Shown here: piece after piece, positions 4,628 to 22,564 of the stretch | Layout of the letters: every line of letters starts with the position of its first letter | How positions within the stretch are numbered: position 1 is the stretch's first letter | DNA from: Alphaproteobacteria bacterium | GTDB lineage: Bacteria; Pseudomonadota; Alphaproteobacteria; Rhodobacterales; Rhodobacteraceae | DNA: 64,000 nucleotides | Reading direction: 5' to 3' | NCBI GenBank assembly: GCA_030429105.1 | Contig: JAUIDE010000006.1 | Coordinates: 1 to 64,000 of the forward strand | Notes under the pieces: model-generated | Seen by the model: the letters and a program-made list of their open reading frames with translations, nothing else | What the model was told of the DNA's origin: nothing | The model's database searches: none | Translations under genes and position numbers: made by a program

Positions 4628-4631
4628 CCTC

Positions 4632-5108
4632 TCAGGCCGGCTCGGTTTCGACATGCGGCGCGAAGCGATCGACATCCACGATCCGGAGCAGCCTGTCGTT
4701 CAGAAGGATGACGCCGGAGACCATCTCGTTCGTCTCGTCCCCGGCGAGAGCGGGCGTCGGCTGGAAGTCGGTCTCCGGAATCGAGAGGATGTCCGTGACG
4801 GTCTCGACCAGAAGGCCGAGCAGATGGCCGCGCACCTCGACCACGATGGTCGAGTGCCGGCTTGTCGTCACCGTGTCGCCGAGGCCGATCCGCGCCGCGA
4901 AGTCGATCACCGGCAGCACCAGGCCGCGGAGATTGATGACCCCCTTCACGAAATGGGGCGTGCGCGGCAGGCGCGTCGCCTCGCTCCAGCGCCGGATTTC
5001 CCGCACCGAGCCTATGGCGATGCAATATTCGTCCTCGCACACCCGGAAGACGACGACCTCCCGGCGAGCGACCCTGCGATCCTCTTGCGCTTCGTTCATC
5101 TCGCTCAC
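4632..5108 (-). CDS. cheW: Chemotaxis coupling protein CheW
   Basis: 158 residues, a single CheW domain that bridges CheA and receptors at the membrane array. Typical features are the beta strand VVVFRVCEDEYCIAI near residues 18-32, the segment GVINLRGLVLPVIDF around 55-70, and the late strand ILLNDRLLRIVDVDRF. It overlaps the cheA stop by 4 bases (ATGA), which suggests translational coupling. An internal ATG at 5099 is a possible alternative start. Confidence 0.95.
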   Translation of the reverse strand: MSEMNEAQEDRRVARREVVVFRVCEDEYCIAIGSVREIRRWSEATRLPRTPHFVKGVINLRGLVLPVIDFAARIGLGDTVTTSRHSTIVVEVRGHLLGLLVETVTDILSIPETDFQPTPALAGDETNEMVSGVILLNDRLLRIVDVDRFAPHVETEPA

Positions 5109-7306
5109 CCCGTCAACGCCATGACATGCCCCGCCCCGTGCGGGCCCGAGGCCTCGCGCACCAGCGCATCCACATCGAGGATCAGCGCGATGCGCCCGTC
5201 CCCGAGGATCGTCGCGGCGGCGACGCCACGCGTCCGGCCGAAGCCCTCCTCCAGCCCCTTGATGACGACCTGTCGCTGGTCGAAAATATCGTCCACCAGC
5301 AGGGCGCAGCGGGCGCCGCCCTCCGTCTCCGCGACCATCAGCACGGAATCGAGCGGACTTTCGACCGGTGGGCGGAAGCCGAGCTCCGCCCCGATGTCCA
5401 CGATGGGCAGTGGCTCGCCGCGCACGAGAAGCACATGGTCGCGCGGCCCCATCCGCTTCAGGTCGGCCTTCGTCGGCCGGCAGGTCTCCACGATGGCCGC
5501 GAGCGGCGCGACGAGCGTCTGGTCCGCCACGCGGACGACGACGCCGTCCAGCACCGCGAGGGTGAGCGGCAGGCTGATCGAGAAGACGCTTCCCTCCCCC
5601 GGCTTCGAGGAGATGATCGTGCGCCCGCCGAGCGCCTGGATCGCCCGCTTCACCACGTCCATGCCGACGCCCCGGCCCGAAAGGGCGGAGACCTCCTTGG
5701 CGGTGGAGAAGCCCGGCATGAAGAGGAGGTTGTCGATCTCCGAATCGCTCAGCTCCGCATCGGCGGGGATGAGCTTCTTCTCCTTGGCGATGGAAAGGAC
5801 GCGCGGGCGGTTGATCCCCGCGCCGTCATCCGCAATCTCGATCACGATCCGGCCCGAGCGCTGCGCGGCGGAGAGGCGGATCGTCCCCTCCGAAGGCTTG
5901 CCCGCATCGGCGCGCTTCTCCGCGGATTCGATCCCGTGGTCGACCGCGTTGCGGATCATGTGCGTCAGCGGGTCTGCGAGGCGCTCGACGATGGTCTTGT
6001 CCACCTCGGTGCCCTCGCCGTCGGTGACGAGCTTCACCGACTTTCCTGTCGCATGCGCCGCCTCGCGCACGATCCGCGTCATGCGCTGGAACAGCGGGCG
6101 GACGGGCTGCGCCCGGATCGCCATGACGCTCTCCTGAACGTCGCGCGTCAGCATCCGGAACTCGTCCAGCCCCTCGGCGATGGCGGCGTGCCGGGCGAGC
6201 CCGGCCTCGGCGATGCGCTGCGTCAGCATCGCATGGGTGATGACGAGCTCGCCCGCGAGGTTGACCAGCCGCTCGATGCGGTCGGTGTCGACCCGGATGG
6301 AGGCCTTCGCGCCGTCCCCGCCCTTGCCCTCGCCCGCCTTGCCGCCGTCCTCGCCCTTCGGCGCGGAGGCCTTTGCGGGCGCGGGCTCGGCGGGCGCGGG
6401 CTCCGCCGCGGCGGCCGGCTCCGGCGCCGGCTCGAAGGCGGGCGCGTCGAAGGCCGGCGCCGCAAAGTCGGGAATGTCCTCCGCAGCGGCAGCCCCCGGC
6501 CCGCTCTCGGCGGGAACGGCCTCCAGCGCGCAATCGTCGGCGACGAATTCGAAGATCTCGAAGATCTCCTCCTCCTTCGCCTCGGTCTCCAGCCGGATGC
6601 GCCAGGCGAGGCCCGCATCCTCCGGCCCGAGATCGCCGAGCGCGGGCAGCGACTCCGTGTCGAGTTCGATCTCGCAGGGGCCGAGCGCGGCGAGCGCCCG
6701 GAGGAGGAGCAGCGGCTCGTTCCCGCGGGCGTAAAGCCCAGTGGCCGGGCGGAAGGTCAGGAGCCAGACCGCGGGCCCGACCGGCGCCTCGATAGCGGCG
6801 ACCGGCTCGGGCGTGAAGTCGAGCGTCTCCAGCGCGGCGGGCTCGAAGCCTGCCGGCTCGTCCGCCCCGAAATCGAGCGACATCGGCGCATAGCTCTCGT
6901 CGACCTTCTCCGCTCCCGGCTTCACGGGGATGAGCGCGACGATCTCCTCGAGCGAGGCCTCGATCGCGGCGTCGTCCGTCGCCGTCTCGTCGCGCATGGC
7001 GGCCACGAGGTCGGCCAGGATGTCGGAGGCGCGAAGGAACACGCCGATGACATGCTCGCTCTTCGGGATGCGCGCATCCCTCAATTCGTTCAGAGAGGTC
7101 TCGAACTTGTGGGCGAAATTCACGAGAACGTCGAGCCCGAACGCCCCCGCGCCGCCCTTGATCGAATGCACCGCGCGGAAGACGGCGTTCACCGTCTCCC
7201 GGTCGTCGTCGCCGTCTGAGAGCTGCTGCAGCCCTTCGGCGAGGACGGTCAGCAGGTCCTCGCATTCCTCGAAGAAGCCGCCGCGGAGTTCGTCGAGCTC
7301 GCTCAT
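5105..7306 (-). CDS. cheA: Chemotaxis histidine kinase CheA (operon 1)
   Basis: 733 residues. P1 phosphotransfer domain with H47 in FRAVHSIKGGAGAFG; a P2-like domain around 180-260 (TFRPATGLYARGN to EFVADDCALE); an Ala/Pro/Glu-rich linker; dimerisation domain from DRIERLVNLAGELV; ATPase with N box MIRNAVDHGIE, G1 DDGAGI and G2 FMPGFSTA plus GRGVGMDVV; and a C-terminal CheW-like P5 domain ending LILDVDALV. All parts needed for ATP-driven phosphorylation of CheY and CheB are present. It starts 11 bases after cheY and overlaps cheW by 4 bases. The same P2 type occurs in the second CheA of the window, so the two are paralogues. Confidence 0.96.
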   Translation of the reverse strand: MSELDELRGGFFEECEDLLTVLAEGLQQLSDGDDDRETVNAVFRAVHSIKGGAGAFGLDVLVNFAHKFETSLNELRDARIPKSEHVIGVFLRASDILADLVAAMRDETATDDAAIEASLEEIVALIPVKPGAEKVDESYAPMSLDFGADEPAGFEPAALETLDFTPEPVAAIEAPVGPAVWLLTFRPATGLYARGNEPLLLLRALAALGPCEIELDTESLPALGDLGPEDAGLAWRIRLETEAKEEEIFEIFEFVADDCALEAVPAESGPGAAAAEDIPDFAAPAFDAPAFEPAPEPAAAAEPAPAEPAPAKASAPKGEDGGKAGEGKGGDGAKASIRVDTDRIERLVNLAGELVITHAMLTQRIAEAGLARHAAIAEGLDEFRMLTRDVQESVMAIRAQPVRPLFQRMTRIVREAAHATGKSVKLVTDGEGTEVDKTIVERLADPLTHMIRNAVDHGIESAEKRADAGKPSEGTIRLSAAQRSGRIVIEIADDGAGINRPRVLSIAKEKKLIPADAELSDSEIDNLLFMPGFSTAKEVSALSGRGVGMDVVKRAIQALGGRTIISSKPGEGSVFSISLPLTLAVLDGVVVRVADQTLVAPLAAIVETCRPTKADLKRMGPRDHVLLVRGEPLPIVDIGAELGFRPPVESPLDSVLMVAETEGGARCALLVDDIFDQRQVVIKGLEEGFGRTRGVAAATILGDGRIALILDVDALVREASGPHGAGHVMALTG

Positions 7307-7317
7307 CGCCGCCCCCT

Positions 7318-7683
7318 TTACGCCGCCACGCGCCGGATGGCGGCGACGAGCTTGTCCTTGTCGAAAGGCTTCACGATCCAGCCCGTGGCCCCGGCCTCGC
7401 GCGCGCGCTGCTTCATCTCCGGCGCACTCTCCGTGGTGAGGGTGAGGATCGGGATGCGCCCGCGCCGCGCGTCGCCGCGCACCGCCTCGATGAAGCCGAA
7501 GCCGTCCATCCGCGGCATGTTGATGTCCGTGATGATGACGTCGGGCGCGCAGGTCTCGAGCGTCTCCAGCCCGTGCACGCCGTCATCCGCGGTGTGGACG
7601 GTGAAACCGGCCTCCGAAAGCGCCTTGCGCAGCAGGTCGCGCATCGTGCGCGAATCGTCCACCGCGAGCACGGTCAGCGTCAC
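7318..7683 (-). CDS. cheY: CheY-type response regulator
   Basis: 121 residues, one receiver domain with D9/D10, phospho-acceptor D53 in ITDINMPRMDG, the threonines in TLTTES and K in VKPFDKDKL. The start is a GTG at 7683 whose bases overlap the stop of the STAS gene (GTGA), giving a 4-base overlap; the longer open frame upstream belongs to a different reading frame of that gene. It lies directly before cheA. It closely resembles the CheY at 17377-17742, which suggests that the two operons share ancestry. Confidence 0.93.
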   Translation of the reverse strand: MTLTVLAVDDSRTMRDLLRKALSEAGFTVHTADDGVHGLETLETCAPDVIITDINMPRMDGFGFIEAVRGDARRGRIPILTLTTESAPEMKQRAREAGATGWIVKPFDKDKLVAAIRRVAA

Positions 7684-7985
7684 GCCGCCGCCTCCTCGAG
7701 TTCGGCGAGGAGCGCCGCCGCGCCCATCGTCGCGGCGTCCGCGCGGAACGCCTCGGAGGGCGCCGCGAGCGTGAGTTTGGCGCCGTCCTGCTTCCAGGCC
7801 GCTGCGCCGGCGAGCAGCGCCTGCAGGCAGGCCGCGCCGAGCGATTCGACCTTCGACGCGTCGAGCCGCAATTCGGCCCCGCGGCTCTCCCGCAGCGCCT
7901 CGATCAATCCGGCGGCCGCGCCCGTGCCCAGCGCCGCCTCGAGTTCGATGGTCTTCACGACTGGCTCCTTCGACTTCTTCGCCAC
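7680..7985 (-). CDS. STAS-domain protein in the chemotaxis operon
   Basis: 101 residues from a GTG at 7985 behind GGGAGGCGAAAG; a second GTG lies nine codons in. The sequence fits a STAS (anti-sigma-factor-antagonist-like) fold: IELEAALGTGAAAGLIEAL, then LDASKVESLGAACLQALLAG, which carries the serine where a phosphorylatable residue sits in the family. It overlaps cheY by 4 bases. STAS proteins occur in some alphaproteobacterial and related chemotaxis operons, but their job there is not settled. No partner kinase of the RsbW type is visible nearby. Confidence 0.75.
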   Translation of the reverse strand: MAKKSKEPVVKTIELEAALGTGAAAGLIEALRESRGAELRLDASKVESLGAACLQALLAGAAAWKQDGAKLTLAAPSEAFRADAATMGAAALLAELEEAAA

Positions 7986-8106
7986 CTTTCGCCTCCCACA
8001 CACCCTTGAAAGTCGCTCCGGGCGTCGGCCCCGCGCTTCCGGGCTTATAGGGCGGGCGGCCTTAAGAAGACGCGAACGGGCGCCCGCCGCGCCCCATCCC
8101 CGCGGG

Positions 8107-8652
8107 TCAGAAGAGTTCGACATGGCCATTTCTTGGCTCCTTCGGCTCGGCCGCGCGGATCGGCGGCAGCGACTCGATTTCGGCGATCGGGCGGGTCCTC
8201 GCCACGCCCGTCGCCGGATGAAAGCGGAGATGGAGCCCGCGCCGCCCGCCCACATTCTCGGCGATCAGAGGCACTCTCTCGTCCATGAAGAAACGTCGCG
8301 CGAAGGCGACGTTCGCCTCGCCGATTCGGCTGAGGCCGGAAACCACTCTCGCCCCGCCGAACAGTTTAGCGACGAGTCGCTCTTTCCGGGCGCCGAGATG
8401 GAGAAGCTCGTTGACGAGCAGCTCCATCAGATGGGCGCCATAAAGCCGCGCGCGGGTGTCGTCGGTTCCGGTCTCCGGCAGGAGAAAATGGTTCATGCCT
8501 CCGAGCTTCGCGACCGGGTCATGCAGGCAGGCGGCGACGCAGGAGCCGAGCAGCGTTGCGAGAATGGCGTCGGGGTCCGCGGAAACGGCGTACTCTCCCT
8601 GCATCACATGTCGAAGGGTCTGCGCCTGCGAGAGTGGCCGCTCGTCGCTCAT
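8107..8652 (-). CDS. cheD: Chemoreceptor glutamine deamidase CheD
   Basis: 181 residues. CheD deamidates receptor glutamines and in some bacteria works with CheC. The catalytic pair is visible as C38 in LLGSCVAAC and H55 in GGMNHFLLP. The start codon overlaps the cheB stop by 4 bases. The C-terminus ends in an acidic/hydrophobic tail, NGHVELF. There is no cheC in the window, and the second chemotaxis operon has no cheD. About 120 bases without a gene separate it from the STAS gene downstream. Confidence 0.95.
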   Translation of the reverse strand: MSDERPLSQAQTLRHVMQGEYAVSADPDAILATLLGSCVAACLHDPVAKLGGMNHFLLPETGTDDTRARLYGAHLMELLVNELLHLGARKERLVAKLFGGARVVSGLSRIGEANVAFARRFFMDERVPLIAENVGGRRGLHLRFHPATGVARTRPIAEIESLPPIRAAEPKEPRNGHVELF

Positions 8653-9677
8653 GCCGGATGCGGGGAGGCGGCGCAGGCGCGGAGCAGCGCTTCCCGCATC
8701 TTCTCGAGCGGGAGGACGCGCTCCGCCCCGCCCGCCTCCGCCGCCGCCTTCGGCATTCCATAGACGACGGAGCTCCCCTCATCCTGCGCGAAGGTCCGCG
8801 CGCCGGCGTTTCGCAAGGCGCGCAATCCGTCAGCGCCGTCGCGGCCCATGCCCGAGAGCACGGCGGCGGCGACGCGGGCGGCAGTGGGCTCGCCCGAGGC
8901 GAAGAGCCGGTCCACCGCCGGGGAGACGCCGTGCATCTTCGGCCCTTCGACGAGCCGGCAATGCAGCCCGGCCGAATCGACCTCGAGATGCAGCGGCCCG
9001 CCCGGCGCGATATAGACGACTCCGGCGCGAAGCGGCGCGCCGTCCGCCGCCTCCATCACCCGCGGCGCGGCGGCGACGTCAAGCCGCGCAGCCAAGAGCT
9101 TGGTGAAGCCCACCGGCATGTGCTGCACGATCAGGGTCGGCGGGCAGTCGGCCGGCCAGCCGCCGAGAATGGCGCTGAGCGCGTCCACCCCGCCCGTGGA
9201 GGCGCCCAGCATCACGATCCGGTCGGGCGCGAAGGGCATGGCGGCGGCGGCCGGCCGCGCCCCCGCGGGGGCCGGCCCGCGCAGCCGCGCGCGCGCCGCC
9301 TGCTTCACGATCCGCGGCAACGCAGCGAAGCTTTCCCCGTCATCGCCGTGGCCCGGCTTGCAGACGCATTCCACCGCGCCCTCGACCAGCGCCTCGATTG
9401 CGACGGCGGCCCCCTTCGCCGTGAGCGTGGAGACCATGACGACCGGCGTCGGGCGCAGCCGCATCAGCTTGCGGAGGAAGGATATGCCGTCCATCCCCGG
9501 CATCTCCACGTCCAGCGTCAGCACGTCGGGCGAAAGAGCCTTGATCGCCTCGCGCGCCTCGTAGGGATCCCCGGCCTCGCCGACGACCTCGATATCGGGA
9601 TCGCGCAGCAGCGTCGCGGCGATCAGCCGGCGCATCGTGCGCGAATCGTCTACGATCAGAACCCTGGTCTTGCGCAT
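8649..9677 (-). CDS. cheB: Chemotaxis protein-glutamate methylesterase CheB (operon 1)
   Basis: 342 residues. Receiver domain with D56 in TLDVEMPGMDG, linker, then the methylesterase domain with the serine in MLGASTGGVDAL, the histidine in IVQHMP and the aspartate in SGMGRDGADG. It removes methyl groups from receptors and is activated by CheA. It follows the PAS-MCP by 25 bases and overlaps cheD by 4, so the modification enzymes B and D are translationally linked. Confidence 0.96.
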   Translation of the reverse strand: MRKTRVLIVDDSRTMRRLIAATLLRDPDIEVVGEAGDPYEAREAIKALSPDVLTLDVEMPGMDGISFLRKLMRLRPTPVVMVSTLTAKGAAVAIEALVEGAVECVCKPGHGDDGESFAALPRIVKQAARARLRGPAPAGARPAAAAMPFAPDRIVMLGASTGGVDALSAILGGWPADCPPTLIVQHMPVGFTKLLAARLDVAAAPRVMEAADGAPLRAGVVYIAPGGPLHLEVDSAGLHCRLVEGPKMHGVSPAVDRLFASGEPTAARVAAAVLSGMGRDGADGLRALRNAGARTFAQDEGSSVVYGMPKAAAEAGGAERVLPLEKMREALLRACAASPHPA

Positions 9678-9702
9678 CGCTCAGCCCCCGGTCTTCCGAG
9701 CC

Positions 9703-11574
9703 TCAGAACTCGTTCCAGTCCTCGTCCGGATCGGCGGCGAGGGCGGCGGAGCCTTCGGTCCGCAAGGCGCGGCGCGCCGGGGCGGGGCTCGCCTCGCGCC
9801 CGCCGCCGTCGCCGACGCCGAACTGGCCGATGATCTCCCCGAGCCGGTTCGAATCCTCGCGGAGCTCATGGCCGGCCGCCGTCATCTCCTCGACCATCGC
9901 GGCGTTCTGCTGCGTCACGCCGTCGAGCTGGTCCATCGCCGCCATGATCTCGCCGACGCCGGAGGATTGCTCGCGCAGCGCGCCCGCGATGGCGGCGACG
10001 AGCGCGTTGATCTCGCCCACCGTCGCGATGATCTCCTCCAGCGCGGAGCTGGTCTGCCCCACATATTTCGCGCCTTCCTCGACCTGGCGGGCGCTGGAGG
10101 AGATCAGCGTCTTGACCTCCTTCGCCGCGTCAGAGCAGCGCTGCGCCAGCGCGCGAACCTCGGAGGCGACGACGGCGAAGCCGCGGCCCGCCTCGCCCGC
10201 CCGAGCCGCCTCCACCCCGGCGTTGAGCGCGAGGAGGTTGGTCTGGAAGGCGATGTCGTCGATCACGCCGATGATCTGCGCGATCTTGCCGGAAGATTCC
10301 TCGATGTTCCGCATCGCGTCGAGCGAATGGCCCACGACCTCGCCGTTGTCGCGGGCGTTGGCGGCGGCGGCGGCGATGAAGTCGTCCGCCTTGGCGGCGT
10401 CCGCCGCCGCGGCGCGCACGCTGTCGGTGAGCTGCTTCAGCGCCGCGACCGTCTCCTCCTGCGCCGCGGCCTGGCTCTCGGTCCGGCGGGAAAGGTCCTC
10501 CGCCGCCTGGCTGATCTCGCCGGCGCCGGAGCGGATGCCGCCGGCCCCGGCCGCGATCTCGCGCAGAACGTCCGAAAAGCGCGCGCGCGTCGCGTTGAAG
10601 TCATGCCTGAGCTGCTCGTGTTCCTCGGGGAACGGCTGGTCGATCGGCAGCGAGAGGTCGCCGGCGGCGAGCCGGGCGAGGCCGCCCCGGAGCCCGGCGA
10701 CGACGCGGGAGAGCGCCGAATCCGCCCGATCCAGCTCCTTGCGCGCCTCCTCGCGCTCCGTCTCCTCGCCCGTCGCGTCGCGGCCGATGAAGACGATCCG
10801 CGCCACGGCGCCTGATACGTCCGCGATCGGGCGCCATCCGCCGCGAAGATGCGCCGCCCCGCCGTCCTTTGTCTCGTGGCGGAACGCGCCGTCCACCGCG
10901 TCGCCCCGGAATAGATGCTCCCAGAGATCCCTGTAATCGAGCGATTCGCGCTCGGCGTCGTCGACGAGGAGCGAGTGGGGCTTGCCGACGATCTCCTCCA
11001 GCTCATAGCCCAGCGCCTCGAGGAAGAGCGGATTGGCCCGGACGAGCACGCCCGAAGGGTCGAACTCCGCCACCGCCTCGCGCGCCTCGATCGCGAGGAT
11101 GAGCGCGCGGTCGCCGAAAGCCGCCTGCATCGCCCCGGTCATGTCCCGAAGCTCGACCGCAAAGCCCGCCCGCCCGTCCTCTTCCGGCGAGAGCGGGGCG
11201 GGGTTCAGCTCGACGACGATGCCGCCGAACGCCGCGTCCGCCGGCTCGCCCGCGGCGAAGAGCCCGGCCTGCTTGCCCTTCGTTCCGGGAAAGAAGTCCA
11301 GCTTAGCGCCGATCGGCTTCGCCGGGTCGAAATCGCGGGAAAGAGCCCGGAAAGCCTCCGCCCGCTCGGCGAAGAAGCGCAAAGCCGCCTCGTTCGCCTC
11401 CACGAGCCGCATCTCCGCGTCGAGCAGGACGAGCGCCGAACGGGTCCGGCGGAACGCCGCGGTCGCAGGGGCCGGCGCCGCGGCGGGCGGCGGGAGGAGT
11501 TCGGCCGGCGCCGCCGGGGCGGTCTCCGCCGCGGCTTTCTTGCCCGAGGGTGAGAGTCTGGCGAGGAGGTTCAT
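9703..11574 (-). CDS. Soluble PAS-type methyl-accepting chemotaxis protein with CheR-tether-like tail
   Basis: 623 residues, no membrane segment and no signal peptide. After a Pro/Ala-rich lead come two PAS-like domains (about 40-150 and 155-275; the second has [20 protein letters not shown] and [10 protein letters not shown]), a HAMP-like linker (about 290-340), and the MCP signalling domain with the hairpin [19 protein letters not shown]. The last five residues, DWNEF, match the xWxxF pentapeptide that tethers CheR/CheB in other bacteria. The architecture resembles energy/redox-type cytoplasmic receptors (Aer/BdlA-like), but no residue proves a flavin or haem cofactor. Confidence 0.9.
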
Positions 11575-11722
11575 GATCGACGTTCCGTTCCTGTGCTGGC
11601 GTTTCGTGCCGCTTTCCGGCCCCGGGTCGCTCCGGGGTCGGCGGGGGCGAAGTTCGGGCGCCCCGCGTTGTGCTTCTCTGCCCCCGACTCGCTGAAATCT
11701 TCCTTAAGCGGGGCGCGCCCGC

Positions 11723-14170
11723 TCACGCTTCGGCGGCGGCGAGGGCTCTTTCCGGGGCGGCTTCCGGCTCCGCCTCCTCCGCCGCGCCGCGCCCGTCCGC
11801 CGCATCCCTGTCGGCGTCGTCGATCGTCGCCGTGAGGTCCTGCGCCTGGAAGGAAAGGTCCTGCGCCGTCTCCAGCGCCGCCGCGGCGGCCGAGAGGTTC
11901 CGCTCCACCACCTCCGCGAGAGCCCGGATGGCGGAGTCGATCTGCTCGGCGCCGGTGGATTGCTCCCGCGTCCCGAGCGAGATCTCCTTCACGAGGCCGG
12001 ATGTCTTCTCCACCTTCGGCGAAAGGTCGTCGAGCAGCGCCCCCGCCTCGCGGGAGAGGGTCACCGTCCGCGACGCGAGCTCGTTGATCTCCTCGGAGGC
12101 GGCGCGGCTCCGTTCCGCCAGCTTCCGGACCTCGGCGGCGACGACCGCGAAGCCGCGCCCGCTTTCCCCCGCCCGCGCCGCCTCGACCGCGGCGTTGAGC
12201 GCGAGGAGGTCGGTCTGCCGCGCGATCTCCCGCACGATGGAGATCCGCTCGGCGATCTGCGTCATGGCCCCGAGCGCCTCCCGCACCGTCGCGCCGGAGC
12301 GGTTCGCGGCTTCGGCCATCTCCCGCGCGATCCGGTCGGTCGCCTCGGAATTGTCCGCCATGAGCCGGAGGCTGGAGGACATTTCGGTGATCGCCGCGGA
12401 AGCCTCCTGCGCGGCGCTGGATTGCCGGACCGTGCCATCGTTGATCGCCTCCGCATTCTCCCGGAGGCTTTCGCTGACCCCGGCGACGGATTGCGCGCTC
12501 ATCCGCGCGCGCCGGAGCACCGATTGCAGCCGCGTCTCCAGCGCCATGGAGCGCGCGAGATTCTCCCGGAAGACGACGAGCGCCGCCCCCATCTCGCCGA
12601 TCTCGTCAGTTCGGTCCTCGAAGCCGGAGATCGGCGCGAGGTCTCCGGCCGCCAGCGCCCGCGTCCGCGCCGAGAGCGACCGGAGCGGCGCGACGACCGC
12701 GCGCCCGACCATCCGGACGGCGAGCGCCCCGATCACGACGCCGAGCGCGCCGACGAAGGCGAGGGCGATCTGCGCGGTCATGATCGCGGCGTTCACCTCT
12801 GCGCCCGCCTCCTCGATGCCGGCCACTGCGCCGTCGATCTCCATTTGGGCGCTTGCCGCGAGTCTCGCCATCGCCTCCTCGGCCTCCCGCGCCGCGCGCA
12901 GCGCGGCGTCCGCCGCCTCGATCTCCCGCAGGCGCATCGAGGCGACGCCGATCTCGGGGTCGGCCGAGGCGAGAATGCCGTCGATGGTCTCCGACAGCGG
13001 GCCGATATCCCCGCCCGCGTCGCGCGCGGCCCTCAGCGCGTTGCGGCCCAGCTCCAGCGGCTCGATGGCCGCGAGCGCCGCCGCGCGGTCCGCCGCGCCG
13101 CCCGCGCCGTACACCGCGGCGACCGTCTCATGGATGAAACTGTCGATCTCCAGGCGGTTCTGCATGAGCCTGAAAGGCCCGTCCATGAGCGCCTTCAGGG
13201 TCCCCTCGGTCGCGGCGATGGAGTCCTCCGTCCGGATCGTGAGCTCGAACACCTTGTCGTCCAGCAACGAGTCCACCGTCAGTTCGAGTTCACGCGCCGC
13301 GTCTAGCACCGCCCTCTGGACAAGCGAGCTGCTTCCCGCCGAGCGCACCTTCATCGCTTCCGCAATCAACGCCTCGCTCGGCGCGTCGAGGGTGCTCGCT
13401 GAAGAAGGGTCGAGCGTCCGCAGCTCCTCGAGCGCGGCCGCAAGCCGACCCTCGGCGCTCGTCGCCGAATCACCAAGTATGCTTTTGACGGACGGGTCGA
13501 ACACCGTGCTCTGCCCGATGGCCGATCCGGCGAGGAGGTTCGCCGCCGCCCGCACGCGAAGGGCGTATTCGACCTTCCGCACGTCCGTCTCCACCAACTC
13601 GCGCACCGTCGTCGCGGCGTTGTCCGAGACGCCCTCGACCCCGAGGACCATCTCGAAATTCGCTTCGTCCACGATGGGATGCAGCTGCTCCTCCGCGCGC
13701 TCGGCGAGGGCGATGAGCCGCCCGATCGCCGCTTCCCGGTCGGCCTCGGCCGCAAAATCCGCGCGCTGCGCGGAGAGGAGCGCGTCCCCCTCGCGCCGCG
13801 CCGCCTCGGCGCTGGCGGCGAGGCCCTCGTCGATCTCGCCCGCGCGCGCCGCGAGTGTTTCGTCCAGCACCCGGAGCGCCGCGGCGAAGGCCTGCGCGCC
13901 GGTTTCCAGCGCCGCCTCGTCCCGCGCGCGGCGCATCGCCTTGAGCGCCAGGTCAAGGTCCGCCACAGCGGTCAGCGTATCCTTCGCGCCGACGAGGGCG
14001 CCGACCCGCTCCTCCCGCAGCCGCTCCACGGCGCCTGAAATCACGAGGAACGCCGCCATCGCGACGCCGGCGCAGACGAGGGTTAGCGCGACCGCGCCGC
14101 CGAGCCCGAGGTAGATCCTGCGGCCGACGCCGCCACCGGTCTGCGTCTGCACTTCAGCATCCTGCGACAT
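11723..14170 (-). CDS. Transmembrane methyl-accepting chemotaxis protein with large periplasmic domain
   Basis: 815 residues from the ATG at 14170. The frame is open to 14212, but MSQDAEVQ has a better upstream AAAGG and keeps the first membrane helix N-terminal. TM1 lies at about residues 19-41, a helical periplasmic part of roughly 420 residues follows, TM2 at about 465-487, then HAMP, then the signalling domain with [20 protein letters not shown]. The periplasmic part is about twice the usual size, rich in alanine, arginine and acidic residues, and could be a bimodular helical bundle. The gene lies directly after an orphan LivK-type binding protein, which may present a ligand to it. No xWxxF tail. 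Confidence 0.92.
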   Translation of the reverse strand: MSQDAEVQTQTGGGVGRRIYLGLGGAVALTLVCAGVAMAAFLVISGAVERLREERVGALVGAKDTLTAVADLDLALKAMRRARDEAALETGAQAFAAALRVLDETLAARAGEIDEGLAASAEAARREGDALLSAQRADFAAEADREAAIGRLIALAERAEEQLHPIVDEANFEMVLGVEGVSDNAATTVRELVETDVRKVEYALRVRAAANLLAGSAIGQSTVFDPSVKSILGDSATSAEGRLAAALEELRTLDPSSASTLDAPSEALIAEAMKVRSAGSSSLVQRAVLDAARELELTVDSLLDDKVFELTIRTEDSIAATEGTLKALMDGPFRLMQNRLEIDSFIHETVAAVYGAGGAADRAAALAAIEPLELGRNALRAARDAGGDIGPLSETIDGILASADPEIGVASMRLREIEAADAALRAAREAEEAMARLAASAQMEIDGAVAGIEEAGAEVNAAIMTAQIALAFVGALGVVIGALAVRMVGRAVVAPLRSLSARTRALAAGDLAPISGFEDRTDEIGEMGAALVVFRENLARSMALETRLQSVLRRARMSAQSVAGVSESLRENAEAINDGTVRQSSAAQEASAAITEMSSSLRLMADNSEATDRIAREMAEAANRSGATVREALGAMTQIAERISIVREIARQTDLLALNAAVEAARAGESGRGFAVVAAEVRKLAERSRAASEEINELASRTVTLSREAGALLDDLSPKVEKTSGLVKEISLGTREQSTGAEQIDSAIRALAEVVERNLSAAAAALETAQDLSFQAQDLTATIDDADRDAADGRGAAEEAEPEAAPERALAAAEA

Positions 14171-14252
14171 GATCTGTAACCTTTTATCGCGCACGGAAAA
14201 TCGCCAAACCACGCAGCCGCGCGCGGGGCGCGGCTGCGGTTTTCTCTTCGGC

Positions 14253-15410
14253 TCAGGCGCCGGGGCCCTTCACCGGGGCGAAGGCGCCGGAGGCGTCGAT
14301 CCGCGTGAGGAACACGGCGTCGAGGCCTTGGTTGTCGCCCGGGCCGAAGCTGAGCGTGACCCCGCCGAGATCATGCGCCGTCATCCCCTGCACCGCGGCG
14401 AGGAAGCCCGCGCGGGTCGGCTCCGCCCCGGCCGCGTCGAGGGCGGCGATGGCCATGAGCCCGGTCAGATAGCCTTCGAGCGAGACGAAATCCGGCTCCT
14501 GCCCCGGCGCATGGGCCGCGAGCGCGGCCTGGTACCGGGCGACGACCGGAACGCCCGCGTCCCAGGGCGAGGGCACGACCTGGCTGACGATCACCCCGTC
14601 CCCGTCCGGCCCGAGCTCCCCCGCGAGGGCCTTGGAGCCGACGAAGGAGATGTTGACGAAGGTCGGGTTGAATTTCAGCTTGCGGGAAAGCTTGATGAAT
14701 TCCGCCATCGGCTTGTAGGGGCCGACCATCACCACCGCCTCGGGCTCCGCCTTGCGGATCTCGAGCAGGGCCGACTTCACCGCGACCGTGTTGCGGGTGA
14801 AGGTGCCTTCGGCGATCAGCGTCATCCCGCGCTTCGAGAGCGCGGCGTTGACGCCGTCGAGCCCGGCCCGGCCGAAGGAATCGTCCTGATAGAGGATCGC
14901 GATCTTCGTCAGCTTCTCCTGGTCGACGAGATGCGCGATCCAGGCCTCCGTCTCGGCGCCGTAGCTGGCGCGGAGGTTGACCACATTGCCGAACTCCGGA
15001 TTGCGCAGGAAGCCGGCGCCGGTGAACGGCCCGACGAAGGGCACGCCCGCCGTGGTGGCGAGCGGCTGGGTCGCGGCGGAGGTGGGCGTGCCCACCGGCC
15101 CGATCAGGCCGAAGATCGAACCCGAGTTGAGCATCGCGCTCACCGCCGCCGCTGAGGCGTTCGGCTCGTAGCCGTCATCCGCCGTGACGAGCTCGAGGGT
15201 CCGGCCATGCACGCCGCCGGCTGCGTTCGCCTCCGCGAAGGCGATCTCGATGCCCGTCCGCACCCCGGTTCCGAGCGCGGCTGCGGGGCCTTCGAAGGCG
15301 GCGACCTGCCCGAACGTCACCTTGTCGGCTGAGACGCCGGGGTCGGCGAAGGCCGCGAAGGGCACGGCGAGGGCGAGGGCGGTACGCACGGCGATCTGTC
15401 GTAATGACAT
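14253..15410 (-). CDS. Branched-chain-amino-acid-type (LivK-like) periplasmic binding protein without a transporter
   Basis: 385 residues. A signal peptide of about 22 residues (MSLRQIAVRTALALAVPFAA) is followed by a type I periplasmic binding fold: VTFGQVAAFEGPAAALG, LELVTADDGYEP, IGPVGTPTSAAT, AILYQDDSFGRAGLDG and YLTGLMAIAAL. The family binds amino acids, amides or small organic acids for ABC uptake. No LivHMFG genes are near; instead it sits inside a chemotaxis operon, 82 bases before the large membrane MCP. A role as a ligand-presenting protein for that receptor is inferred. Confidence 0.9.
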   Translation of the reverse strand: MSLRQIAVRTALALAVPFAAFADPGVSADKVTFGQVAAFEGPAAALGTGVRTGIEIAFAEANAAGGVHGRTLELVTADDGYEPNASAAAVSAMLNSGSIFGLIGPVGTPTSAATQPLATTAGVPFVGPFTGAGFLRNPEFGNVVNLRASYGAETEAWIAHLVDQEKLTKIAILYQDDSFGRAGLDGVNAALSKRGMTLIAEGTFTRNTVAVKSALLEIRKAEPEAVVMVGPYKPMAEFIKLSRKLKFNPTFVNISFVGSKALAGELGPDGDGVIVSQVVPSPWDAGVPVVARYQAALAAHAPGQEPDFVSLEGYLTGLMAIAALDAAGAEPTRAGFLAAVQGMTAHDLGGVTLSFGPGDNQGLDAVFLTRIDASGAFAPVKGPGA

Positions 15411-15511: not shown

Positions 15512-17173
15512 TCAGAAAAGTATGTCCGCCAGAGCGTCCTCGGCCGCTGCCGCGGCCTCGGTCGCCGGCTTCGGCGGCGGCGGGTCCCGTCGCCGCGCCA
15601 CGCCGCCGCCGACGAGCGCGAGGTGCACCTCGCGCTCCCGCTCCATCGTGTAGAGGTCGAAAAGGTCCTCGAGCTGCGCCGCCGGCGGCGGCGAGGGCGG
15701 CGCGTCGGCGCGCATCTCCCGCGCGATCTCGCCGAGCCCGGAGGCCGCCGCCGTGACCTGGGCCAGCGCCTCCCGCGCGCCGCGGACCGCCGGCAGCAGC
15801 CGGCCCGAGGCCTCGGCCGCCTCGCCCCGCATCGTCTCGAACGCCGCCAGCGCCTCCTCCGCGTCCCGCAGCCGCTTCTCCGTCTCTTCGAGCGCGGCGG
15901 AGAAGGCGGACGAGGTCTCGACAATGGCCGCCCCCCGCTCCGGCGCCGCGGATTCGGAGAGCCGGCGCAGCGCCTCGCTGCACTCGCCGCCTCGCGCAGC
16001 GCATTCCTGCGCGCATTCCCGCACCGCGTCGGAGAGGACGCCGAGCGCCGCGCGCGAGGCGCCGCTGCGCGCGGTCAGCAGCATGGCGTTGATCGCGGAA
16101 AGGTTGATGCCGGCGGAGCTTCGCGTCAGCCCGGCGAACCGCTCCTTCGCCTCGGACAGAAGCGCGCGCACGCTCGCGCCCGATTCCGAGGCGATCCGGG
16201 CCGCGTCCGCCGCCGCCCCGCGCTGCGCGGCGATCTTCTGGAGGTCGGAGCGGCGGAAGCGGAGCGCCGCGCCGGCGGCGCCCTCGTCTTCCGCCGCGCC
16301 GAACACGTCCCGCACATGCACGCCCTCGGAGGCGAGGCGCGACATCGACCGGTCCGCGCCGGCGGCGGAGGCGCGCGCGTCGGCGGCGAGCGCGTCGAGC
16401 TGCGCGGCGACGAGAGCGCGCACCGCGCCCTCCCGCCCCTCGGCCCGGTCGATCATCGTCGTCACATGCTCGACCCGCTGCGCCAGCGAATCGGAGAACT
16501 GGATCGCGGCGACGAGCGAGGAGGTCTCCCGCGACACCGCCTCGGCGTAGGAGCGCGCTGCGCCGCCGAGCCCGCGCAGGAGTTTCGTCGCCTCGCTGCG
16601 GATCGCCTCGCGCCGCGCCTTGCCCGCCTCGATCGAGGCGCCGGCGGAGCGGAGCGCGCGGGCGGCCCGCCGCCCGGCCTCGTCCGCGTTCCCGAGCGCG
16701 GCGCCGACGCCCTCGATCGCACGCCCAAGATGCCCGCACTCGGAGGAGAGCGCGCTGATCAGCCGCCGAAGATCGACGACATAGACGTCGAGCCCGTTCG
16801 CCCCGAGCGAACCTGCCGTGACGACGGTGATGGAGGCGATGGCCCCGAGCTCCCGCACCTCCCGCACGATCTGGTCGAGCGAGGCGATGGCGAGTTCGAG
16901 ATCGGCGAAGGCGGAGGCGCGGTCCGCCCCGCCGCCGGCGAGCGCGGCGCCGAGCGCGCGCGCGGCCGACGCGACAGGGCCGACCGGGTCTCCGTCGATC
17001 TCCTGCGCGGCGAGAAGGGACGAAAGCCGGTCGAGCTGCCGTCCGAGCGCGCCGAGCTCTCCATGCACATGCCGAAGCCTGTCAGCCGCCTCGGCGAAGG
17101 CCCCGACGCTGCGGTTCGCCTGCTCCGCGACATTGGCCCTCGCCGCGTCGAATTCCGTGCGCCTTGCCATCAC
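15512..17173 (-). CDS. Soluble coiled-coil protein with a degenerate chemoreceptor hairpin
   Basis: 553 residues, no membrane segment, almost wholly helical with long Ala/Glu/Arg heptads. Around residues 355-385 the sequence INLSAINAMLLTARSG then VLSDAVREC can be aligned with the conserved MCP tip ([17 protein letters not shown], then VVASEVRAL). The glutamate of NAAxE is replaced by leucine and the AGE glutamate by alanine, so normal CheA/CheW contacts are doubtful. Cysteines cluster after it (RECAQECAARGGEC). It is the first gene of chemotaxis operon 1, divergent from cheY of operon 2. It may be a cytoplasmic receptor relic turned adaptor, or a competitor for receptor arrays. Confidence 0.7.
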   Translation of the reverse strand: MMARRTEFDAARANVAEQANRSVGAFAEAADRLRHVHGELGALGRQLDRLSSLLAAQEIDGDPVGPVASAARALGAALAGGGADRASAFADLELAIASLDQIVREVRELGAIASITVVTAGSLGANGLDVYVVDLRRLISALSSECGHLGRAIEGVGAALGNADEAGRRAARALRSAGASIEAGKARREAIRSEATKLLRGLGGAARSYAEAVSRETSSLVAAIQFSDSLAQRVEHVTTMIDRAEGREGAVRALVAAQLDALAADARASAAGADRSMSRLASEGVHVRDVFGAAEDEGAAGAALRFRRSDLQKIAAQRGAAADAARIASESGASVRALLSEAKERFAGLTRSSAGINLSAINAMLLTARSGASRAALGVLSDAVRECAQECAARGGECSEALRRLSESAAPERGAAIVETSSAFSAALEETEKRLRDAEEALAAFETMRGEAAEASGRLLPAVRGAREALAQVTAAASGLGEIAREMRADAPPSPPPAAQLEDLFDLYTMEREREVHLALVGGGVARRRDPPPPKPATEAAAAAEDALADILF

Positions 17174-17746: not shown

Positions 17747-19762
17747 ATGAGCGCGATCAATCCCGTCATCGCCACCTTCATCACCGAGGCGCGCGAACAG
17801 CTCGAAGGGCTCGAGGCTCTGCTTCTCGATCTCGAATCGGACCCGGCGGCGGAGAAGGTGGACGCCGTCTTCCGTGCGCTTCACACCGTGAAGGGCTCGG
17901 GCTCGATGTTCGGCTTCACAGTGCTCGCCCGCTTCACCCACCACTTCGAGGACGCGTTCGACCGGGTGCGCGAAGGGCGCCTCTCCGTCACCCCCTCGCT
18001 CGTCGATCTCTCGCTGAAGGCGCGGGACCACATGACCGCGCTCCTCGAGCTCGGCGGCGACGGGCCGGAGGCGGAGGCGCTGGCCGCCGCGCCAGACGCG
18101 GCCGCTCTGCTCGCCGCCCTCGCGCGGCTTGTCGGCGGCGACCACGCAGAAGATGCCGAACCCGCCGCCCCGGAGGCGAAGGCGGAGCCGGCGGCGAAGC
18201 TGCGCCGCTGGACGATCCGCTTCCGCCCGGCGCCGGACGCGCTGAGGAACGGGATGCGGCCGGATCTGCTCCTGGCCGAGCTCGCCGCGCTCGGGACCGC
18301 GGAGATCGCGGTCGACACCGAGGCGCTGTCGCCTCTCGAAACGCTCGATCCGACGGTTTCCCAGCTCGCATGGACGGTCGGTCTCGAAACCGCGGAGCCG
18401 CGCTCCGCCATCGAGTCCGTGTTCGTCTTCGCGGACGACGCCGATCTCTCCATCGCCGAGGTCGCCGACGAGGCCCCGTCGCCGGAGACGCCCGCCGCGC
18501 CTGCGCCGCAGCAGCCGACGCAGGCCGCCGCCGCGCCCGCCGCGGCGGCTCCGGCCCCTCGCGAGGCCGGCGGCAAACGCCCCGCCGCCGCGAACGGCTC
18601 CGACCAGGTCCGCATCCCCGCGGCGCGGCTCGACGAGATCATGGACCGGCTCGGCGAGCTCGTGATCGCACAGGCCCGCCTCCGCCAGATCGCCGACCAG
18701 AGCGCGGAGCCCGAGCTCGCCGGCGTCGTAGAGGAGGTGGATCGCCTCGTCTCAAGCCTCCGCGATTCGACTCTCTCGATCCGGATGCTCCCGATCGAGA
18801 CCGTCTTCGGCAAGTTCCGCCGCGTCGTCCGCGATCTCTCGTCCGAGCTCGGCAAGGATGTCGACCTCATCGTCGAGGGCGGCGAGACCGAGATCGACAA
18901 GACCGTGCTGGACAAGCTCTCCGAGCCGCTCGTCCACATGATCCGCAACAGCATGGACCACGGGATCGAGCAGGCCGAGCGCCGTCGCGCGGCGGGCAAG
19001 CCGGCGCAGGGCCGCCTCCTTCTTTCCGCCCGGCAGGAAGGTGGGGAAGTGCTGATCTCCATCGAGGATGACGGCGCCGGGCTCGATGCGGAGGCGATTC
19101 GCGCGAAGGCGCTGGAGCGGGGGCTCCTGACCGCCGATTCGACGCCGACCGAGGCGGAGCTGCACCAGCTCATCTTCGCCCCCGGTTTCTCTACCGCCAA
19201 GCAGCTCTCCTCCGTCTCCGGCCGCGGCGTTGGAATGGACGCCGTGCGGACGGCGGTGGACGCGCTCCGCGGCTCCATCGACGTCCTCTCGCGCGCCGGC
19301 TCCGGCACGCGGGTGACGCTGCGCCTCCCCGTGACCCTCGCCATCGTCGAGGGGCTTCTGATCCGGCTCGGTGAGGCCGCCTATGTGCTGCCGCTCTCCG
19401 TCGTCGAGGAATGCGTGGAGTTCGACCCGAAGGAGAGGAGCCACGAATCGGGCCGCTCCGTGCTCCTGATTCGGGAGCATCTGGTGCCCTTCCTCGACCT
19501 GGTGGACGCTTTCGGCGAGCCGCCTTCGGAGGAGACCCGCCGTCGCGTCGTCATCGCACGGGCGGACGGAAAGCGCATCGGCCTTGTGGTGGACGACATC
19601 CTCGGCCAGCACCAGACCGTCATCAAGACGCTCGGCCCGCTCCACCGCGAGGTCGAGGGCTTCGCCGGCGCCACCATCCTCGGGGACGGCTCCGTCGCCC
19701 TCATCATCGATGTCGCCGCCCTCTCCCGCCGCGCGCTCTCGTCGCGGCGCGACGCCGCCTGA
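17747..19762 (+). CDS. cheA: Chemotaxis histidine kinase CheA (operon 2)
   Basis: 671 residues. P1 with H46 in FRALHTVKGSGSMFG; P2-like domain about 155-240 (IRFRPAPDALRNGM to VFADDADLSI); Ala/Pro-rich linker; dimerisation helices from RLDEIMDRLGELV; kinase with MIRNSMDHGIEQ, DDGAGLD, FAPGFSTAKQ and GRGVGMDAV; and CheW-like P5 ending ILGDGSVALIIDVAAL. It phosphorylates the adjacent CheY and CheB. The same unusual P2 type as in the first CheA shows common descent, so crosstalk between the two pathways is a real question. Confidence 0.96.
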   Translation: MSAINPVIATFITEAREQLEGLEALLLDLESDPAAEKVDAVFRALHTVKGSGSMFGFTVLARFTHHFEDAFDRVREGRLSVTPSLVDLSLKARDHMTALLELGGDGPEAEALAAAPDAAALLAALARLVGGDHAEDAEPAAPEAKAEPAAKLRRWTIRFRPAPDALRNGMRPDLLLAELAALGTAEIAVDTEALSPLETLDPTVSQLAWTVGLETAEPRSAIESVFVFADDADLSIAEVADEAPSPETPAAPAPQQPTQAAAAPAAAAPAPREAGGKRPAAANGSDQVRIPAARLDEIMDRLGELVIAQARLRQIADQSAEPELAGVVEEVDRLVSSLRDSTLSIRMLPIETVFGKFRRVVRDLSSELGKDVDLIVEGGETEIDKTVLDKLSEPLVHMIRNSMDHGIEQAERRRAAGKPAQGRLLLSARQEGGEVLISIEDDGAGLDAEAIRAKALERGLLTADSTPTEAELHQLIFAPGFSTAKQLSSVSGRGVGMDAVRTAVDALRGSIDVLSRAGSGTRVTLRLPVTLAIVEGLLIRLGEAAYVLPLSVVEECVEFDPKERSHESGRSVLLIREHLVPFLDLVDAFGEPPSEETRRRVVIARADGKRIGLVVDDILGQHQTVIKTLGPLHREVEGFAGATILGDGSVALIIDVAALSRRALSSRRDAA

Positions 19763-20275: not shown

Positions 20276-22528
20276 ATGACCATCCGCCTCAAGCTCTTCG
20301 CCGCCTTCGGCGCGATGATCCTCCTCATCGCCGCCTCCACGCTCTTCGGCCAGCTCGGCCTGACGCGGATGGAGGAGCAGGTCCGCGTCCTCACGGAGGA
20401 GACCGGCCGCTCCATGCGGCTCGCGCAGCAGATGCGGAGCGAAGCAATCGGCGTGCAGCTCGCCGCCCTGATTTACATCGATGACGCCATCGCCACGGAT
20501 CATTCCGAGATGATCGACTCGGCGGTGCGGGACGCGGACGCGCGCATCGCCCGCATCGAGGAAAGCCGGGAAGCCCTGCGCGCGCTGGAGACTCCGGAGA
20601 CGGCCAGCCATCTCGCGGCCTTCGACGCCGGCTGGGCCCGGTATCGGGAAGCTGAGGCCGGCGTGCGCGCCGCCGCGCTTGAACGCTCGAACCTGCGCGG
20701 CGAGACTATCGCGCTGGGCGAGGGGGCGGAGGCCTATGCGCGCCTCACCGAGGCGATGGACCGCGCGCTGGAGACGAGCCGCGATCAGATCGCCGCGACG
20801 GGCGGTGAAAACGCAGCGCTGGTCGAAACGGAACAAGCATTGGATATCGGCTTCGACGATGTGCGCGCCTTGCAAGACGCGTCGAAGACCATCCTCATCT
20901 CGACGAGCGAGGGTATCCCCGCCGCCGTCGCCGAAGCCCGCGGCCACATGGAGGCGGCGGAGCACAGGATCGCATCGGCCGAGGCCGCAGGCGTGGCCTC
21001 GCTCCGCGCCGAACTCGCCGCCCTGCGCGCGGCGTGGGACGCCTACAGCGCGCTCTCCACGGAGATGATCGGGAGCATGGAACGCGACAGCAAGGGCGAA
21101 GCCTATCGCCTCCTCGCCGATGCGGACCTTGTCTTCTACGAGGTCGCCGCGTCGCTCGATGCGCTGGTGGAGGCCGCCGCCGCGGCCTCCGCCGCAGCGC
21201 GGACCGAGGCGAAAGCGACACAGGAATCCTCCGTCGCCACCCTCCTCTCCGTCGCCGCCGCCGCGATCCTGATCGCGATGCTGGTCGGCTTCTTCCTCTC
21301 CCGCTCCATCTCCCGCGGCCTCGCCCGCGCCGTCTCGGTCGCGCGAGGAGTCGCCGCGGGCGACCTGACGATGGACGCCTCGACGAGCGCGAAGGACGAG
21401 GTGGGCGACCTCCTCCGCGCGATGGAGGAGATGCAGCTTTCGCTCCGCAAGCTGGCGACGAGCGCGGATGTCATCGCCCGCGGCGACCTCGAAACCGCGC
21501 TGAACCGCCGGTCGGATGCTGACACGCTCGGCGTCGCGCTCGAACTCATGCTCGCGAAGCTGCGCGAGGTGGTGACGAAAGCCTCGCAGAGCGCCAACGG
21601 CGTCGCCGAGGGTGCGCAGTCGGTCAGCGCCGCCGCCGAGCAGATGAGCCAGGGGGCGACCGAGCAGGCAGCAGCCGCGGTGCAGGCCTCCGCCAGCATG
21701 GAGGAGATGACGGCGACGATCCGCCAGACCGCCGACAACGCGGCCCAGACGGAAAAGATCGCCGGCCAGGCCTCCGGCGAGGCCGCCGAGACCGGCAAGG
21801 CGGTGGACGAAGCCGTCCTCGCCATGCGGACCATCGCGGAGAAGATCACCATCGTGCAGGAGATCGCGCGGCAGACGGACCTTCTGGCCCTCAACGCCGC
21901 GGTCGAGGCCGCGCGCGCCGGGCAGCACGGCCGCGGCTTCGCCGTCGTCGCCTCCGAGGTGCGGAAGCTCGCGGAACGCAGCCGAGAGGCCGCGGCGGAG
22001 ATCGGGCAGCTTTCCGGCCGCACGCTCCAGGTGAGCGAGAGCGCGGGCGAGAAGCTGCGGGCCCTCGTCCCCTCCATCCGCCGCACGGCGGACCTCGTGC
22101 AGGAGATCAGCGCCGCGGCGCGGGAGCAGAACGCGGGGGCGGAGCAGATCAACGCCGCAATCCGCGAGCTCGACTCGGTGATCCAGCAGAACGCCGCCGC
22201 CTCCACCGAATCCGCCTCCATCGCGGAAAGCCTCGCCAATCAGTCCGCCGAACTCCGCTCCGCCCTCGGCTATTTCCGTCTCGGCGGGGAGAAGGCTGCG
22301 GCGAAGCCGGGGTCGAAACCCGGCGCGAAACCGGCCGCGTCGGAGCCCGTGAAACCCGCCGCGCCGGCCAAGGCCTCCCGCACGCCGAAACCGGCGGTCG
22401 TGAAGGCCGAACCTGCCGCCGCGCCCGCGGAAGCGGCCGAAGCCGCTCCCCGGCAAGTCGCGATGAAGGTCGCCGGCGGCCGCGGCGTCGTTCTGGATCT
22501 CGGGGACGACGCCTTCGAACGGTACTGA
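20276..22528 (+). CDS. Transmembrane methyl-accepting chemotaxis protein (operon 2, first)
   Basis: 750 residues. TM1 at about 9-28, a helical periplasmic domain of ~290 residues, TM2 at about 321-342, HAMP plus a second HAMP-like segment, then the signalling domain with [21 protein letters not shown] Lys/Ala/Pro-rich linker leads to a conserved end, [14 protein letters not shown]. That tail resembles the CheR-tether pattern (aromatic-x-x-aromatic) but with F and Y in place of W and F. The hairpin region of 68 residues is identical to that of the next receptor. An SD-like AAAGGGGAG precedes the ATG. Confidence 0.94.
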
Positions 22529-22564
22529 ACGGCGCCCAGTTGAGCGCCAGATAGGACAATTGTA

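Follow-up and report, generated by a model that had tools for sequence, protein, structure and literature searches.

In the textbook cases of chemotaxis stimulated through a binding protein, the chemoreceptor borrows the binding protein of a transporter. The initial annotation of the locus described here took such borrowing to be the norm, which turned out too strong: linked binding proteins are less unusual than thought, and of the characterised couples in one source, 10 of 11 with a sensor kinase and 3 of 11 with a chemoreceptor are encoded by neighbouring genes (PMC11113362). Receptors read through a binding protein are an established kind that includes TorT–TorS, XylFII–LytS, LuxP–LuxQ, PstS–CtpL, LsrB–Tsr and the maltose-binding protein (MBP) with Tar; the paper that names these describes TorT, LuxP and XylFII as binding their receptors with and without ligand and cites a TorT/TorS-LBD structure (PMC6321045).

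We analysed a stretch of 64,000 nucleotides from an alphaproteobacterium of the family Rhodobacteraceae, called the window below, in which a binding-protein gene stands directly before the gene of a membrane-bound MCP. On the minus strand the order runs from 15512-17173 through the binding-protein gene to the MCP gene at 11723-14170, with these features:

15512-17173, minus strand: upstream gene for a soluble, helical protein of 553 aa that carries IQFSDSLAQRVEHV; no Pfam, NCBIfam or PHROGs match
14253-15410, minus strand: secreted type-I binding protein of a Peripla_BP_6 subfamily (Pfam, AF2 model, 4kv7 matches)
14212-14238, minus strand: 11-bp stem-loop directly 3' of the binding-protein stop codon, before the MCP (folding energy)
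11723-14170, minus strand: transmembrane MCP, presumed partner, 815 aa from the ATG (HAMP 9.2e-09, MCPsignal 1.5e-27)
12773-14038, minus strand: periplasmic sensor of this MCP (about residues 45-466), predicted to be all-helical and TorS-like (AF2 and VIA-align)

The placement of a secreted binding protein directly before a membrane MCP, as proposed in the initial annotation, was borne out. The open reading frame at 14253-15410 encodes 385 aa from an ATG start, and its product matches Peripla_BP_6 with an E value of 7.6e-60 (203.8 bits against a curated cut-off of 31.7; Pfam); by eye its N terminus, MSLRQIAVR-TALALAVPFAAFA before DPG, reads as a Sec signal peptide. The MCP gene begins 82 bp downstream on the same strand, a GTG at 14212 being a possible alternative start, and its product classes as a transmembrane MCP by two hydrophobic segments about 420 residues apart together with the HAMP and MCPsignal domains. 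We consider it likely that 14253-15410 encodes the dedicated periplasmic ligand-sensing subunit of the adjoining chemoreceptor, making the pair a TorT/TorS-like input wired to chemotaxis. The binding protein would be exported and close on a small molecule, and would act on the MCP through its long helical sensor in the periplasm, as TorT acts on TorS; the conformational change would then reach the signalling tip via TM2 and HAMP, where it would alter the activity of CheA. Physical contact, ligand-driven signalling, the CheA that is fed and the sign of the response are parts of this picture that we infer.

The AF2 model of the binding protein, built from 20 aligned sequences, reached a pLDDT of 91.4 and a pTM of 0.90. 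Its closest solved relative is 4kv7 (sequence 2.3e-63; fold TM 0.88/0.87; Foldseek 9.4e-36), a possible Leu/Ile/Val-binding protein of Rhodopirellula baltica that shares the FTGA and SFVG stretches with the window protein. The model of the MCP sensor, built from 18 sequences, consists entirely of helices, the longest spanning 108 residues, at a pLDDT of 86.8 and a pTM of only 0.59. A Foldseek search with it returned McpZ (8f7n) on the top row at 1.4e-05, followed by chains of TorS–TorT at 5.2e-03 and weaker, and VIA-align superposed the predicted model on TorS 3i9y with a Z of 18.1 (221 of 229 residues, rmsd 2.7) and on 3i9w with a Z of 17.4 (264 of 270 residues, rmsd 3.2), TorS within TorT complexes scoring 16.1-16.3. 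McpZ, known here from its entry title as a chemoreceptor and similar in its extended helical periplasmic domain, scored 16.4 over 346 residues at an rmsd of 12.3, with no rigid-body superposition on the MCP sensor. XylFII–LytS (5xsj) appeared on row 9 with a Z of 15.4 over 111 residues. Other rows held domains of PilJ, NarQ, Tsr and Tar, talin (Z 13.1), catenin and further bundles, which we took as general helical background, in keeping with the tool's note that helical models may reach a Z of 13-14 via common arrangement. TorS therefore stands above the background, with McpS-type direct binders close behind (Z 16.2 for 2yfa, and 15.9), and as helical bundles generally score high, the predicted TorS fold counts as support, not proof. 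In Pfam searches with E values up to 0.1, the window MCP matched neither TorS_sensor_domain nor the HBM profile, 2yfa being an HBM-fold row; the partner MCP of one relative (L031) matches TorS_sensor_domain above the cut-off at 1.3e-9, and the receptors of L086, L093 and L098 match it below the cut-off.

The likeness to TorT–TorS of E. coli and Vibrio lies in the gene layout, a type-I binding protein being encoded beside a receptor whose long periplasmic domain is all-helical. The output differs: TorS acts as a sensor kinase, whereas in the window the receptor is an MCP (HAMP plus MCPsignal), kinase outputs being found in relatives; the window binding protein belongs to Peripla_BP_6, and the predicted sensor spans about 420 residues compared with 270 in 3i9w. 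XylFII–LytS likewise has a binding protein that presents ligand to a helical sensor, but with a kinase output and a shorter sensor. In MBP–Tar, PstS–CtpL and LsrB–Tsr, as in the proposed pair, a periplasmic binding protein acts on an MCP (PMC6321045); they differ from the window, where the binding protein lacks a linked transporter. With LivJ and LivK the window protein shares the fold and the Pfam family, but identity is 18-22%, the residues aligned with ligand contacts differ and no LivHMGF genes lie beside the window gene. A literature search, centred on papers free of subscription, found nothing on this subfamily or on a pairing of a TorS-type MCP with Peripla_BP_6, and as far as that search reaches, the combination of a Liv-less Peripla_BP_6 subfamily with TorS-like MCPs in many alphaproteobacteria, and with other outputs in relatives, is new.

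Co-occurrence of the two genes in other genomes, the check proposed in the initial annotation, was found in near relatives. Among 19 loci from named genomes, collected by a contig scan with the binding protein, an MCP lay directly downstream on the same strand in 17 (exceptions L029 and L035). In 41 genomes comprising the window's own and its nearest relatives, 11 had a match to the binding protein at 1e-20; these include the window and four matches of 46-64% identity, followed by an MCP in L026, L036 and L037 and by a histidine kinase in L038. The remaining matches, at 25-30% identity, are distant homologues, and LivH/LivM-like genes occurred in all the distant-homologue stretches tested (L040, L041, L042 and L043). 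Across 385 alphaproteobacterial genomes, 31 carried the binding protein at 1e-60 in 32 places, 26 of which had a receptor directly downstream: 14 MCPs, 9 histidine kinases, a receptor cut by a contig end (L077, with the sensor matched), a guanylate/adenylate-cyclase receptor (L086) and a SpoIIE-phosphatase receptor (L098); in 6 places there was no receptor. This class set overlaps with the near sets, L079, L082 and L026 being contigs of L031, L032 and G020. In two of the receptor-less loci, L029 (8297-9877) and L081 (4874-6445), the preceding gene encodes a secreted protein of similar size, the one in L029 combining a PBP-like with an OmpA domain.

When the search was turned round and the 385 genomes were scanned with the MCP-sensor profile A1, 21 gave hits at 1e-20. 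Both genes were present in 14 of them, against a chance expectation of about 1.7, and were adjacent in all 14 (12 times with an MCP, once with the cut-off receptor and once with the cyclase receptor); the MCPs of the remaining 7 genomes have no binding protein of this kind beside them. These counts are to be read with the make-up of A1, whose 18 sequences come from partnered sensors and favour partnered ones, and with the scoring of only about four to five first-look candidates per genome, which limits both. The 7 solitary receptors, like the McpS score above, fit an MCP that senses its ligand directly in the manner of McpS, next to a binding protein that serves an unlinked ABC transporter and is a mere neighbour. 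We regard that as quite unlikely given the adjacency at 17 of the 19 named-genome loci, at 26 of the 32 class places and in every class genome that has both genes.

Farther out, 52 of 398 genomes of the phylum set carried the binding protein in 57 places. Among the 48 newly examined ones, 15 had a receptor directly downstream (8 MCPs and 7 diguanylate cyclases or GGDEF-EAL proteins), 2 were cut by contig ends (L179 and L194) and 31 had no receptor, as judged by our queries and lists of open reading frames; one of the 8 MCP loci, L197, was identical to L025 in the compared proteins. With no receptor directly downstream in 31 of the 48 places, dedication to receptors characterises the nearer relatives but does not extend to the family as a whole. 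All 21 relatives at least 58% identical to the window protein have a receptor next to them (one of them cut off), and the first unpaired member appears at 57.7%, the line at 58% having been drawn after the table was seen. Correlated gene distances were left aside as proof of contact because neighbours share their history regardless. An open frame of 1293 codons in G052 suggested a fusion of binding protein and receptor, which was ruled out, as the receptor is a separate reading frame 96 bp downstream. In L179 (3-5558) the binding-protein gene lies behind CheA-, CheY- and CheW-like genes and the contig ends 222 bp downstream of it.

No transporter genes were said to lie near the binding-protein gene, and this was confirmed. 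The genome has 16 Peripla_BP_6 matches and 36 matches to BPD_transp_2, the LivH/LivM family; a comparison of the two lists by hand placed 13 of the 16 genes within 3 kb of a BPD_transp_2 permease match, the other three being 14253-15410 and two genes on contigs C74 and C180 that have no permease match. The nearest BPD_transp_2 match to 14253-15410 is 65 kb off on the same contig, and no LivH/LivM-like reading frame was found across the 64-kb window; with 201 contigs in the assembly, such counts take in linkage within contigs. No other Peripla_BP_6 match lies within about 59 kb of an MCP on its contig. Relatives beside LivHMFG genes, which would have pointed to a transporter, were also looked for: LivH/LivM-like reading frames occurred in 1 of 100 stretches with members of the family (the window included, a few duplicates among them, with flanks of median length about 4.5 kb and eight places below 2.5 kb on one side), and controls were positive in 7 of 7 (two overlapping). 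Membership of 14253-15410 in a Liv operon is ruled out by the 65-kb distance and by this survey.

The one positive stretch, L024 from Oceanicella, holds a complete urtABCDE urea operon (3979-13895, all genes above the NCBIfam cut-offs) that ends 57 bp before the reading frame of the binding protein. A pair that follows a transporter operon would suit a binding protein working in transport beside a directly sensing MCP, but the urea operon already comes with a UrtA, which gives the signalling pair the look of an appendage. The binding protein might also supply an unlinked permease and signal as well, like the maltose-binding protein with Tar, a reading that overlaps with the one we prefer. The 36 BPD_transp_2 matches leave room for such a dual role and many members in the phylum set have neither a receptor nor a Liv transporter, but 13 of the 16 Peripla_BP_6 genes already sit beside permease genes and the gene of the near relatives keeps to receptors, not permeases, making a dual role rather unlikely.

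A sister genome of the same genus, G002, retains the operon on contig C508 (L205), which begins within the last part of the upstream gene and extends to CheA. Identity to the window is 86% over the last 71 residues of the upstream gene, 96.8% for the PAS-type MCP, 96.5% for the CheB-like protein, 96.7% for CheD, 91.1% for the STAS protein, 97.6% for CheY and 95.9% for CheA. The MCP downstream of the upstream gene is 94.2% identical in its signalling part and 63.8% in its sensor; along the protein, identity is 60% over residues 1-25, 96% over the next 25, 36-88% over 51-525, 92-100% over 526-775 and 76-87% over the remaining C-terminal residues. No binding-protein gene lies between the upstream gene and this MCP (L205 150-900): residues 1-62 of the binding protein match there at 47% (E 3e-6), a match of residues 269-332 is at chance level (E 0.2), and the frame, open over about 186 codons, is elsewhere unlike the binding protein. 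We read this as loss of the binding protein in G002, replacement or an assembly fault also being possible in an assembly that is 66% complete and consists of 650 contigs. The two other genomes of the genus had no match to the MCP at 1e-20.

In the few control pairs, four in number (three with MCPs, one with kinases), that keep the binding protein and have signalling or kinase parts 93-94% identical, the sensors are 79-95% identical, compared with 63% for the G002 pair. Sensors of pairs that keep the binding protein and whose signalling parts are 86% identical are only 49-70% identical, so a sensor identity of about 63% is unusual only in comparison with the closest pairs. An MCP kept without a binding protein is what direct sensing would allow, and a receptor operon retained with no more than a brief resemblance to the beginning of the gene might mark that gene as a relic or passenger with no role in chemotaxis. 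The latter is highly improbable, as the window copy is an intact frame within a conserved subfamily and the sensor is the part of the MCP that drifted most in G002, as coupling to the binding protein predicts. For a dedicated sensing subunit, this receptor without a binding protein provides a natural comparison.

Downstream of the pair, the operon continues with genes for chemotaxis proteins:

9703-11574, minus strand: second MCP of the operon, PAS-type, with C-terminal DWNEF (Pfam; alignment)
8649-9677, minus strand: CheB-like protein (phmmer 3e-72 to ORF 26042-27145; name from reading the sequence)
8107-8652, minus strand: CheD (Pfam CheD 7.1e-23)
7680-8255, minus strand: STAS-domain protein (Pfam STAS_2 2.3e-10)
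7318-8001, minus strand: CheY-type receiver (Response_reg 1.6e-28, residues 111-223; listed start probably too far upstream)
5105-7306, minus strand: CheA, presumed output kinase (phmmer 4e-106 to CheA 17747-19762)
4632-5108, minus strand: CheW-like protein (phmmer 1e-11 against another CheW-like reading frame in the window; name by reading)
3740-4675, minus strand: CheR-like protein (phmmer 2e-34 to ORF 25167-26042; name by reading)

The spacing of the genes suggests co-transcription, and the CheA at 17747-19762, the reference for the operon's own, has the Pfam domains Hpt, H-kinase_dim, HATPase_c and CheW. By alignment, the signalling domain of the PAS-type MCP exceeds that of the MCP at 11723-14170 by 14 residues, and the latter equals in length those of two MCPs in the divergent che cluster at 20276-24619; because receptors that differ in length class may assemble into separate arrays, more than one CheA may be the target of the binding protein's presumed partner. 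The DWNEF end of the PAS-type MCP looks like a tether for CheR or CheB. It had been suggested that the binding protein would define the stimulus of the pathway, a claim that goes too far: with a second MCP in the operon and nine MCPsignal matches in the genome (four inside the window), the binding protein and its MCP can define one input among several.

The gene upstream of the binding protein had been described as receptor-like. Its position is as described and its product is helical, but no family match and no transmembrane segment were found, and an identity as an MCP is ruled out (no match in Pfam at E up to 0.1 or in NCBIfam). Its IQFSDSLAQRVEHV resembles the D-x-x-x-Q motif of the CheZ phosphatase, a lead by which the product could possibly be a CheZ-like protein. 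A homologue of 28% identity, located next to a different che cluster, retains most of this motif and of a YTM stretch at the C terminus.

The 60 nucleotides after the stop codon of the binding-protein gene, read on the coding strand, have a folding energy of -30.4 kcal/mol (z -2.7), and the stem-loop at 14212-14238 could be an attenuator or a stabiliser of the mRNA. A terminator scan placed this stem on the plus strand only and found terminator-like sites no more numerous than in shuffled sequences. A z of -2 or lower after the stop occurred in 14 of the 36 places paired with an MCP, in none of the 13 paired with another receptor and in 4 of the 8 that are unpaired, a comparison that amounts to a hint since the groups differ in GC content and relatedness and the set omits ten receptor-paired loci (L189, L190, L198 and seven GGDEF loci). 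Where another receptor is the partner, the binding-protein and receptor genes mostly overlap by 4 bp. On the simplest view, the stem-loop arrangement would let the cell make more binding protein than receptor.

The description of the binding protein as amino-acid-type held for the fold and failed at the residues aligned with the ligand contacts of LivJ. S79, D121 and E226 of LivJ, which we take to be its amino-acid contacts, correspond to Thr, Tyr and Ser in 20 of 20 members of alignment A2 (a sequence alignment with E. coli LivJ and LivK, from which the pocket is placed), and in the wider set the Tyr at the D121 position is replaced in two members, L038 and L096. A signature of 33 residues is largely kept in members paired with MCPs, kinases, the cyclase and the SpoIIE phosphatase as well as in unpaired members (the minimum being about 24 of 33, in L096, by eye), and is not kept in proteins of Liv operons; the phylum loci have 25-33 of 33, with the exception of a tandem paralogue in L165 (13). 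The columns were picked after viewing A2, where their constancy is uninformative, so the fair test lies in the loci fetched later. Because receptor-less members retain the signature too, it is a mark of the subfamily rather than of dedication to a receptor. Conservation of the signature across the subfamily, together with the replaced LivJ contacts, makes it probable that its members bind ligands of a single kind, other than a plain alpha-amino acid gripped as in LivJ. The pair in the window, whose two genes mostly remain neighbours in related bacteria, probably senses a small compound.

Neighbouring genes in other genomes provide a weak lead toward urea, amides or N-acyl compounds: the urea transporter of L024, M20 amidohydrolases in L165 and L192, and a protein in L086 that weakly resembles caprolactamase, far below the cut-off. 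In L165 (3951-8804) three tandem binding-protein genes are followed by the M20 amidohydrolase. Single-linkage clustering of 1634 neighbouring reading frames, some of whose clusters we took for shadow frames, recovered receptors in 65 loci, ABC ATPases in 16 and membrane-protein-like frames in 11, and smaller clusters, the M20 amidohydrolases among them, were confined to sets of related distant genomes. No third neighbour besides the receptor recurred across the MCP-paired loci, and the idea of an amide or urea is kept as a lead for that reason.

It is conceivable, at somewhat less than even chances, that one subfamily with almost invariant signature residues supplies an exchangeable periplasmic input to MCPs and kinases as well as to a nucleotide cyclase, a SpoIIE phosphatase and diguanylate cyclases or cyclase/phosphodiesterases. 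Should the signature mark the ligand site, the same compound would be wired in many bacteria to movement, gene expression and second messengers independently of its uptake. The signals of most chemoreceptors are unsolved, partly because receptors that read a binding protein seem blind alone. In the present case gene linkage points out the soluble half, which is also conserved, and a single soluble protein could therefore serve to screen for the ligand of a whole receptor class; since relatives stand in front of kinases and cyclases, that one ligand might account for several signalling systems. In the kinase-paired loci L087, L088, L089, L091, L093 and L094, the binding-protein gene follows a gene for a receiver-SpoIIE phosphatase, and in L087, L091 and L094 a small reading frame that appears ATPase-like by eye lies between the two; taken together, these gene arrangements resemble a partner-switching pathway.
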